From the NCBI GenBank assembly GCA_030737835.1, contig CM060850.1, positions 372,001 to 436,000 on the forward strand: 64,000 bases of DNA. The letters run 5' to 3'. A program made the translations under genes and the position numbers. The DNA is from Acorus gramineus. Lineage: Eukaryota; Streptophyta; Magnoliopsida; Acorales; Acoraceae. Positions 45,182 to 49,140 of this stretch are shown in pieces (position 1 is the stretch's first letter; the number at the start of each line of letters is the position of its first letter). Below the pieces are notes generated by a model, which was not told the DNA's origin, ran no database searches, and saw only the letters and a list, made by a program, of their open reading frames with translations.

Positions 45182-47381
45182 ATGGCAGCGACGGCGATCG
45201 AGCTGCCCAGACCGGAATACCCTCCGCCGTACTTCGGCGCCGAAGTCTCCTCCTCATTGCCTCCTCAAGTTGTAGGCGGTGAGGACGAAGACCTGTACGG
45301 ACGCCTCAAATCCCTCCGGCGACAGATCGAGTTCCTCGAGATCCAGGAGGAGTACGTGAAGGATGAGCAGAAGAACCTCAAGAGGGAGCTCCTCCGCGCG
45401 CAGGAGGAGGTGAAGCGGATCCAGTCGGTGCCGCTCGTGATCGGGCAGTTCATGGAGATGGTCGATCAGAACAACGGGATCGTCGGGTCTACGACGGGCT
45501 CCAACTACTACGTGAGGATCCTTAGCACCATCAACAGGGAGCTCTTGAAGCCTTCGGCGTCGGTCGCGCTCCACCGCCACTCGAACGCCCTCGTCGACGT
45601 CCTCCCGCCCGACTCGAGCATTTCACTTCTCAGCCAGTCCGAGAAGCCCGACGTCACCTACAACGTGAGTTTTGATTGATTCGGTCCTGATTTCTGTTGA
45701 TCTTTGGATTTAGGGTTTTGTGGGGAAATTTGTGTGTTTGGAATTGGGATTCTTAGTTAGGAATTCGTATTTCTTGGTTATGATTATTGGAACCTAGGGT
45801 TTGTTTTTTAGGGATCTGATGTTTCTTGTCATGCAAGTTGGGTTTAGATTCCGTGTTCACATTTAGATTGACGTTGGTGGGGTGTGAATTCCATGGAAAC
45901 AAGTTCTGGGTGATAATTTATTGAAGTTTTGAAACTTGAGTGTGTGAGGATTCATCCTTTTGTGGGTGCTGTATGTCTGACGTCCTCCCGCCCGATGCCA
46001 ACTCGAGCATTTCACTTCTCAGCCAGTCCGAGAAGCCCGACGTCACCTACAGCGTGAGTTTTGATTGATTCGGTCCTGATTTCTGTTGATCTTTGGATTT
46101 AGGGTTTTGTGGGGAAATTTGTGTGTTTGGAATTGGGAAATTTGTGTGTCTGAATTTCAGTCAGGTGTCTTTATTTTAATTACCTTTCAAATTTGCTATC
46201 AATAGACGTTGTTAAGGAAGATTTTTAGACTGCCTCTCCTGTCTCCATGTTGATATGTATCTGAGGGATGTGAGGTTTTGTTCAGGCTCAGTAGTGTGGC
46301 GTCTAGGGTGGGTCCTGGTTTGTTATGAACTCATAAAAATCTTTGTAAAATCATACATCCCATTCAATCTGATTATTGGGTTATGATCGATTTTGAAATG
46401 GTAAATAGCTATCTAGTTCCCCTTTTTTATTGCCCTTTAAAATCCTTTGTTCATAATTATAACTTATAAGTTGGCCACGTATAACTGCATATGACATCCC
46501 ACCATGTTAGTTTCTAGATATTTCTATTGTATTTATGAGGGATCCATGGGAGTTCTTTTTGAGGTTGCCGTCCATTCAAATCCTTTAGTTGCATCACCAA
46601 ATATTTACCTTTTTTCCTTGAAGAATATCCATTGTCATGTCGGAGTATCAAAAACATGTCATTACTTAATCGATTTGCATTGCAGCCGGTTTATGGCACC
46701 AATATAACCTGGATTCTGGTATGGGTGTGGTTTATGGGAAGGACCAAGTGTGACAGACCTTCAAATCTATATATGTGTAGTATAAATGGAGGATCCTTTA
46801 CAAGTAAATTGATGACCTGATCAACATGGAATCAATTTATGGTGTTTCCTGTTGATGATCTCTAAAAGCCTTGTCACATGCAAAATATGTTTTCTAATCA
46901 GTTCTTATTACAGTTTTTTAATGATAAGATGGAACCTTTTTTCCCTAAGAGAATAGTCTATATCTAATTAGCATTGAATTGTGGGCATTATGTTTAAATA
47001 TTATTATTTCTTTTATGATAACAGCATTACAGTTTTTTAATGATAAGATGAAACCTTTTTTCCCTTGAGAATAGTCTATATCTAATTAGCATTAAATTTT
47101 GGGCATTATTTTTAAATATTAACAATATTTTTTCTTTGATAACAGCATTTGTTGTAATTTTTTTTTCCAATATTATAATACTGTTAATTTTTGTTTTCTT
47201 TCATATTTGACATGGATTGCATTATCCATTCTTCTTTTGGTCTACACAGGATATTGGTGGCTGTGACATTCAAAAGCAGGAAATCCGTGAAGCAGTCGAA
47301 TTGCCATTGACACATCATGAGCTATACAAACAGATTGGTGTTGACCCCCCACGAGGATTTCTGTCAATGACCTTGTTATAA
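45182..47381 (+). CDS. RPT3: Truncated 26S proteasome ATPase RPT3 (N-terminal part only), 5' half of a chimeric locus
   Basis: Exon 1 (45182-45664, 161 codons) and the start of exon 2 (47250-47381) reproduce RPT3/subunit 6B. A variable N-terminus is followed by the coiled coil ([20 protein letters not shown]), the OB-fold segment ([20 protein letters not shown]), [20 protein letters not shown], and [20 protein letters not shown] up to VDPPRG. An intact RPT3 continues with VLLYGPPGTGKT (Walker A), but here the next residues are FLSMTLL and a stop (TAA 47379-47381). The product would be about 204 residues with no AAA+ domain, against roughly 410 for the family. RPT3 is one of six ATPases that unfold substrates in the 19S base. 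Such a fragment could at best bind neighbouring subunits or chaperones. Exon 1 lacks two residues present in a duplicate of its end inside intron 1. Downstream exons belong to pyruvate dehydrogenase E2. Confidence 0.88.
45979..46139 (+). repeat. Duplicated end of RPT3 exon 1 plus intron start
   Basis: This piece of intron 1 repeats 45,596-45,755 almost exactly: the last 22-23 codons of exon 1, the GTGAGTTTTG donor and about 90 bases of intron. It contains six extra bases (TGCCAA after CCCGA), giving PDANSS where exon 1 has PDSS. The longer form agrees with the usual RPT3 length as I recall it (PEADSS), so this copy may be the more ancestral version. The last coding codon differs (AGC for AAC). 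No acceptor AG directly precedes it, so it is probably not an exon. Confidence 0.85.
46907..47145 (+). repeat. Tandem duplication of about 119 bp in the intron of the chimeric locus
   Basis: A unit starting ATTACAGTTTTTTAATGATA (46,907) is repeated at 47,026 with scattered substitutions and small indels, both ending near GATAACAGC. The divergence suggests it is older than the BPS1 promoter duplication. Confidence 0.8.
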
Positions 47382-49140
47382 AGGTGTGCTATCAGTTAAG
47401 CTTGTAATTGTAAGTTAGAGCATATCTTTCAATGAGATATAAAGGAATCTTGAAACAGCATTAATCAGAATTAAAATTGTGTAGTATATGGGAAGGGGGA
47501 ACTTTGGATGAGAATGTGGATCAGAATGTGAATCATAATATTGATGATTTCTGTGACCAGAAACAGAAATGAATATCATACAGAGTTTATGAGATGAAAT
47601 ATTAATAAAAATCAGTTTTATCTAGAATAAATCACTTACTACCGGAGAGGATCATAAAACATTGTACTTCAATTGTGTAGATCTTGAAACCGGATTCAAG
47701 GACTATATCCATGAGTTACAGAGGCTTCCATAGTTAGCAGTGAACTACTGTGATTGCTTCATGAGACATAATGTGCAAATGTTGAAGTATTGACCGCGTC
47801 GGAAGGATTCAGGTCATGATCATATGTTCACTCTTTACAAGAACATAACCAAGAAAGAAAAAAAAAGCCTTGCTCCTACTTTTCTAATATTTCTTGACTT
47901 GATGATTGCATTTGTGAGTCAAGTGAAAACTGAGAATGTATGTTACATTGAGAAACTCTGCATGTAGAAATAGATTTTTTTAACCCCTGATTTATTTATA
48001 TTTAAAGTTTAAAAATTATGTGTTTAATTGCAGGCTGCAGCTTTGGCCCTCCGAAAAGTTCCTCAATGTAACAGCTCCTGGATGAATGAGCACATCCGCC
48101 AGTAAGTAACATATATATTGCTTATCTATGTTTGTCACAAATTATTAGTAAACGTAGGCACATAGCCCATCTTCTACATTGTGATTTATTATGGCAGATT
48201 GGGAGCTTGTACACGTGCACGCACACACGATATATATTCACAACTTTCTGATGCCATCTTTCTTTGTGTTATCAATATAGATATCATAGCATGAATGTTG
48301 GTGTGGCTGTGCAAACAGACAATGGACTATATGTTCCAATCGTCAAGGTAACAACTTTGATCTGTCCTTTCATGTAAACACTATGCATTTTACTGTTACG
48401 GTTCGACATTTATAAGACTCCATGTACTGCAGGATGCGGACAAGAAGGGTCTTTCAAAAATTTCTGAAGAGGTCAAATATCTGGCCCAAAAGGCAAAGGA
48501 TAACAATCTTAAACCTGAAGACTATGAAGTAATTAAATGAATTTTCCATAAATGTTTTGGATCTCTGTTTGGTTGATACAATCCTTTGTGTTATCTTTAT
48601 AGGGAGGCACATTCACTGTATCAAATTTGGGAGGCCCCTTCGGAGTAAAGCAATTCTGCGCAATAGTCAATCCGCCTCAGTCAGGAATCCTCGCTGTGGG
48701 ATCTGGTAAGATTCATAATATTTATGTAGGTTTCATTTCTTTTTAATTAATTTGGCATCCAAAACTGTTTCATGGGTACTGCATAGGAAAATAAAAACAA
48801 AACAAAGAAGATTTTGTTCTAATTCAATATTTGTCCTTTAAACAGCGGAAAGAAGGGTGATACCAGGTGCTGACCCTCACCAGTATGAGTTCGGTTCCTT
48901 TATGTCGGTCACATTAAGTTGTGATCACCGTGTTATTGATGGTACGCACTAATTCATATTTTATAGAGCTAAAAAAAAACAAGGGGAACTCCTAAATTTC
49001 CAAATTCATTCAATTAAAAAAACTGATGACAATCCATATTTGTTGTTTTTATCATTGCTTTTATATCAGGTGCCATCGGAGCAGAGTGGCTAAAGGCGTT
49101 CAAAGGTTACATTGAGAATCCTCAGTCCATGCTTCTCTAG
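47357..49140 (+). CDS. C-terminal catalytic part of pyruvate dehydrogenase E2 (dihydrolipoamide acetyltransferase), 3' half of a chimeric locus
   Basis: Seven coding pieces (47357-47383, 48034-48101, 48281-48347, 48433-48528, 48603-48705, 48846-48941, 49070-49140) join in one frame to 175 residues: [63 protein letters not shown], and the active-site block [19 protein letters not shown], ending ENPQSMLL. This is the mitochondrial E2 family. The catalytic His and Asp (DHRVIDG) are present and all splice sites are good. The lipoyl, E1/E3-binding and first part of the catalytic domain are missing. The reading frame differs from the upstream RPT3 frame, and stops (TGA) occur in the E2 frame upstream within exon 2. 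Read-through fusion is therefore impossible with this splicing. The first in-frame ATG is at 48,082. It may be a non-translated 3' end of the RPT3-driven transcript or a pseudogene fragment. Confidence 0.85.

Follow-up and report, generated by a model that had tools for sequence, protein, structure and literature searches.

A locus in Acorus gramineus that joins parts of an RPT3 gene and a mitochondrial pyruvate dehydrogenase E2 gene

RPT3 is a proteasome ATPase and E2 is a component of mitochondrial pyruvate dehydrogenase (PDH); the two have unrelated functions and act in different compartments. A locus of Acorus gramineus nevertheless appears to begin as one and to end as the other, which raises the question of how the two pieces came together and whether the result is a gene in any working sense. 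We analyzed this locus within a 64,000-nucleotide stretch of genomic DNA (assembly GCA_030737835.1, contig CM060850.1, positions 372,001 to 436,000; hereafter the window). All coordinates are positions in the window, and the exons and other coding features described are on its forward strand. Our reading, which we hold to be probable, is that the locus is a chimeric pseudogene in which a 5′-complete copy of RPT3 was end-joined, inside exon 2, to the 3′ part of a paralogous mitochondrial PDH E2 gene. Most likely, it arose as a by-product of gene duplication and is now decaying, and it is not a functional new gene.

Layout of the locus and its reading frames

The original prediction assigned exon 1 and the start of exon 2 to RPT3 as far as the residues DPPRG, and the remainder of the locus, beginning with ISVNDLVIK and continuing through six further exons, to E2. 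The exon coordinates and the matches to PDB chain 8amz_K and Pfam profile PF00198 agree with this assignment. The RPT3-like exon 1 (45182..45664) comprises 161 codons from the ATG at 45182, encodes the coiled coil and the OB region (PF16450, E 8e-13), lacks the EA of PPEADSSIS, and ends in phase 0 at the donor GTGAGT. It is followed by an intron of 1585 nt and then by the chimeric exon 2, of which the first 107 nt (47250..47356; DIGGCDIQ...KQIGVDPPR) belong to RPT3 and the rest (47357..47383; ISVNDLVIK, in the E2 frame) to E2. The remaining E2 exons lie at 48034..48101, 48281..48347, 48433..48528, 48603..48705, 48846..48941 (which contains DHRVID, presumably part of the catalytic motif), and 49070..49140, the last of which ends at the natural stop TAG (49138-49140). 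The six E2 introns measure 650, 179, 85, 74, 140, and 128 nt, and GT-AG borders are found at all seven introns of the locus. Because introns with such borders are kept on both sides of the junction, an origin as a retrocopy is ruled out.

At the DNA level, the RPT3 segment abuts the E2 segment without a gap, and the two halves of the locus (45182-49140) are out of frame with each other. The RPT3 codons at the junction are CGA (47352-47354) and GGA (47355-47357), and the E2 codon ATT begins at 47357. The junction zone GAGGA (47353..47357) could be part of either the RPT3 codons or the E2 codons for Lys-Arg-Ile, so that, judging from the genetic code, the two partners would have shared between 0 and 5 bp of microhomology. 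As had been predicted from the difference in frame, translation of the RPT3 frame terminates at the TAA at 47379..47381, giving a protein of 204 residues that ends in FLSMTLL. The E2 part is a single open frame of 175 aa through seven exon pieces. Within exon 2, this frame extends only four codons upstream of the junction before it meets a TGA, so that E2 has no start before the internal Met in exon 48034..48101. Consisting as it does of pieces of two unrelated genes at one place, the locus qualifies as a chimeric gene.

The two halves and their Acorus relatives

The RPT3 fragment aligns with PDB chain 8amz_K (E 3.1e-98) and with 12bm_D, the 26S regulatory subunit 6B, or RPT3 (E 4.6e-83). Its N-terminal coiled coil and OB domain are present (the OB domain was assigned by PF16450, and the coiled coil by alignment to RPT3 chains rather than by a coil predictor). 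The AAA+ ATPase with Walker A and B is absent, because the RPT3 frame ends at 47381, ahead of Walker A; the description of the fragment as a coiled coil plus OB fold with no ATPase is thus borne out. The locus resembles RPT3 (26S proteasome regulatory subunit 6B) in its start codon, in the coiled coil and OB region, in the residues to DPPRG, and in an intron after VTYN, a position at which the P0004 and P0027 models are interrupted as well. It differs from RPT3 in having neither Walker A nor an ATPase, in a deletion of two residues, and in a change of I to V ahead of DPPRG.

Against PF00198 (E 1e-64), the E2 part aligns with profile positions 59-232 of 232; the first 58 of the 232 positions are missing, and the catalytic domain is therefore incomplete. 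No match to the lipoyl and subunit-binding domains with E < 1 was found in the window by tblastn with residues 1-370 of P0007. In comparison with the mitochondrial PDH E2 (dihydrolipoyl acetyltransferase component 2/3), the locus thus retains the last 175 residues with DHRVIDG and the natural stop, but it has no lipoyl domain, no subunit-binding domain, no start of the catalytic domain, and no upstream start of its own. An intact RPT3 continuation nearby was one of two findings that, by the account given in the original prediction, would overturn the chimera. When the 64-kb window was searched by tblastn with P0004, P0005, P0007, P0027, P0241, and P0125, neither an RPT3 continuation nor the 5′ half of E2 was found (the best unrelated match had an E of 0.11), and since this search returned no other RPT3 or E2 exon, a continuation of RPT3 nearby was not overlooked.

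Among the matches listed, the proteins nearest to either half come from Acorus, and the closest relatives of the RPT3 half are P0004 and P0005 of A. gramineus itself. In P0004, exon 1 is followed by a translated repeat piece with DSSFCGCC and then by DIGG...DPPRGVLLYGPPGTGKT, which leads into Walker A. The DSSFCGCC piece corresponds to a second copy in intron 1 of the window (45949-46053, 91% identical). This second copy, which repeats the exon 1 end and the adjoining beginning of intron 1, occupies 45979..46138; of 160 aligned columns, 153 are identical, 6 are gaps, and 1 is a mismatch. The arrangement is read as exon in the P0004 model. P0004 has the same repeat in intron 1 yet continues to DPPRGVLLYGPPGTGKT, which makes it a close relative with an unbroken exon. 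P0004 and the window copy therefore descend from a single RPT3 copy that had this odd intron, and the break at DPPRG is found in the window copy but not in P0004. The RPT3-like models of A. gramineus have abnormal ends (GGNNMH in P0004 and KVIMAICQCLG... in P0005), and P0027 of A. calamus has a normal RPT3 C-terminus. P0004, P0005, and the window copy may form a set of decaying duplicates, although the odd ends could also be annotation errors; unless they are, Acorus may carry several broken RPT3 copies.

A 66-base stretch (44874-44939) some 240 bp ahead of the RPT3 ATG translates to MILAICQCLRKIYY*KHELTPF. When the odd tail of P0005 from A. gramineus is used as the query, it matches this stretch with 72.7% identity (E 7e-7). 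This match hints that RPT3 copies may once have stood head to tail here.

Full-length E2 proteins exist in Acorus, and the E2 half is identical to two of them at 165 of 175 residues (P0007, CPB11g02121, 543 aa) and 159 of 175 residues (P0241, 674 aa). E28, H29, Y70, and N79 are common to the E2 half and P0007, against P0241, and by these residues the E2 half is assigned to the P0007 type. The A. calamus protein P0125 (CPA01g00122, 150 aa) is identical to the E2 half at 147 of its 150 residues, and the internal Met of exon 48034..48101, the first one past the junction, is where its model starts. P0125 differs from the window at three residues. I52, V108, and H132 set the window and P0125 apart from the other Acorus E2 proteins in the comparison, P0007 and P0241 included; outside Acorus, I52 occurs in 8 and V108 in 14 of 167 E2 homologues.

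Both halves also carry changes of their own. Conservation was counted over 179 of 299 proteins (P0001-P0120 and P0241-P0299), of which 169 cleared the E2 cut-offs (167 when the two Acorus rows are excluded) and 5, 3 of them from Acorus, cleared those for RPT3. The EA of PPEADSSIS that is missing from exon 1 (a loss of 6 bp) is kept in P0004, P0005, P0027, and both aligned PDB chains, and the window has GVDPPRG where the same three proteins and two chains have GIDPPRG. With only 5 RPT3 homologues past the cut-offs, the claim for RPT3 leans mainly on these five sequences. The window copy is not alone in drifting: in SASIALHHHSN of P0004, the I and an H replace the usual RPT3 residues, which the window keeps. 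In E2, position 36 is M in the window, V in 159, and I in 8 of the 167 non-Acorus homologues; position 130, a looser site, is D in the window and G in 142, S in 15, and D in 3 of these homologues.

Against decay, the E2 frame is open across seven exon pieces, and the splice sites are canonical throughout. The 3 differences in 150 residues between the window and P0125 imply a young locus, a constrained E2 part, or copies of one species. The Ks between A. gramineus and A. calamus is 0.058 in the excerpted text of the Acorus genome source (PMC10282084). For an A. gramineus window, three changes would be few if the sequence were neutral (a rough estimate is about 19), and this would point to constraint or a later origin; in a further A. 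calamus copy, the same number would carry no such implication.

Origin of the junction

In the reading that we prefer, illegitimate (end-joining) repair would have joined exon 2 of an RPT3 copy to the 3′ part of an E2 gene. The junction fits duplication followed by end-joining or one deletion between neighbors, and the latter is compatible with a pseudogene. RPT3 and E2 would then once have been same-direction neighbors, and a single deletion would have taken the 3′ half of RPT3, the spacer, and the 5′ half of E2. We regard such a deletion as possible but doubtful. It would supply both the promoter (from RPT3) and the terminator (from E2) in a single step, and if the gene names denote chromosomes, as we read them, CPA01g00122 (P0125) and CPB11g02121 (P0007) may sit in corresponding segments, as two segments of A Chr1 are the counterpart of B Chr11 (PMC10282084, in excerpt). 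However, P0125 departs from P0007 at 9 of 150 residues, which we judge to be above expectation for constrained homoeologues at the Ks of 0.055 given in the same excerpt (PMC10282084).

It is unlikely that the chimera arose from an assembly error that fused two unrelated pieces. The junction lies within coding sequence with a possible overlap, estimated from the codons, of at most 5 bp; private changes are present in both halves, neither of which is an intact gene; and the A. calamus P0125 model (a model only) also has no E2 sequence upstream of the internal Met. The annotated relatives are more in keeping with a real locus than with such an error.

The original prediction pointed to the joining of two housekeeping genes with unrelated functions. 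The chimera and its break in frame are real, but the surprise is smaller than was stated, as fusion of gene copies is described as frequent in plants in the excerpted text of a study that counts 310 fusion genes in four Oryza genomes (PMC9199173). Like the Oryza fusion genes, the Acorus locus joins two unrelated genes, a process that in Oryza mostly followed duplication, and relatives of both parents persist (among the expressed japonica fusion genes, 35 of 69 keep both detectable parents). Unlike them, the Acorus locus has its halves out of frame and is known from DNA alone, whereas more than 44% of the Oryza genes are expressed, according to the same excerpt (PMC9199173). The locus is the known plant fusion-gene kind in a broken form, and is ordinary in kind.

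A database search with both halves placed in frame as the query gave 7969 matches from 7994 scored candidates. No chimeric RPT3/E2 protein was present among 9 sequences read (including the seven top-scoring ones) of the best 120 matches. The highest query coverage among these 120 was 59% (P0104), and the high scores of P0001, P0002, and P0003 stem from internal repeats. The search covered proteins of 0.55 to 1.75 times the query length, a range that a shorter chimera model would escape. The open-access literature in PMC, outside which most subscription journals lie, yielded nothing on RPT3 in Acorus or on an RPT3/dihydrolipoyl chimeric gene. The locus represents a clean case, resolved within 5 bases, of copies of plant housekeeping genes breaking and rejoining. 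It also carries a warning for annotation, in that it can pass for RPT3 or for E2; P0125 of A. calamus may be such a remnant.

Predicted expression and flanking sequence

Upstream of the ATG, TGGGC (45058-45062) and an inverted GCCCA (45077-45081) together span 45058..45081 and match the core of the plant proteasome-related cis-element, which is named as TGGGC in the excerpted text of PMC6568242. With 42 copies of TGGGC and 39 of GCCCA across the 64 kb, the pair is weak evidence for a promoter, and its promoter function is putative. Transcription is predicted to run from the RPT3-type promoter to the 3′ end of E2. In the spliced RNA, the RPT3 frame would stop 2 nt short of the junction at the end of exon 2, and five more junctions would follow at 70, 137, 233, 336, and 432 nt downstream. 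A stop upstream of exon junctions usually triggers nonsense-mediated decay (NMD), and the spliced RNA would probably be degraded by this route; its removal would leave no stable product. Two outcomes had been proposed for the locus, interference of the RPT3 fragment with assembly of the proteasome base and a silent locus. Given the NMD-type geometry of the stop and the loss of two conserved RPT3 residues, the first is poorly supported, and a silent or decaying locus is the better supported of the two.

If exon 2 were skipped, exon 1 and the E2 exon at 48034..48101, both in phase 0, are predicted to join in frame to encode 327 residues with no stops. Together with the E2 frame, which is intact in the window and in P0125, this would favor a working new fusion gene that makes either this RPT3 N-domain/E2 protein or a 204-residue RPT3 fragment pairing with a base partner. 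We consider such a gene improbable, as exon skipping is hypothetical, default splicing places the stop in an NMD-type position, part of the E2 catalytic domain is missing, and conserved RPT3 residues are lost. A fusion gene inherited within Acorus, in which exon skipping would give the 327-residue protein (RPT3 coiled coil and OB region with an E2 core tail) and inclusion of exon 2 would act as an off switch through NMD, is very improbable. If the exon-skip form were made, the locus would serve as a test case for fusion proteins that carry a splicing switch of their own from the outset.

Capture and joining of the pieces by a transposon of the Pack-MULE, Helitron, or CACTA type, elements that mobilize gene fragments later spliced into new exon combinations (PMC1947982, in excerpt), is highly unlikely and was rejected after a narrow scan, which found no excess of flanking inverted repeats with a target duplication (one instance, compared with 0-3 when the flanks were resampled 20 times by a Markov model), no 16-mers common to both flanks (low complexity left out), and no Helitron-type end within 44000-52000. 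The scan of the flanks (42000-45181 and 49141-55000) used 14-nt arms with an exact 7-nt seed and at most 2 mismatches, and target duplications of 3, 5, 8, 9, or 10 nt.

Several repeats were noted elsewhere in the window. The segments 10221-10379, 55590-55862, and 56765-57037 belong to one repeat family; inverted arms of 103 nt (at 55.6 kb) and 100 nt (at 56.8 kb) give two of the copies a structure that we read as MITE-like. The segment 52341-53283 looks like a non-autonomous DNA transposon, judging from its inverted arms of 92 nt (52525-52616 and 53168-53259, 84% complementary); its ends read GGGCACGTCT ... AGACGTGCCC. A direct repeat of 232 nt (41419-41650 and 41769-42000) is 100% identical and takes in the first codons of a ROH1-like gene (PF05633) together with the sequence upstream of them. 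It is a very recent local duplication, which has left a second, truncated gene start.
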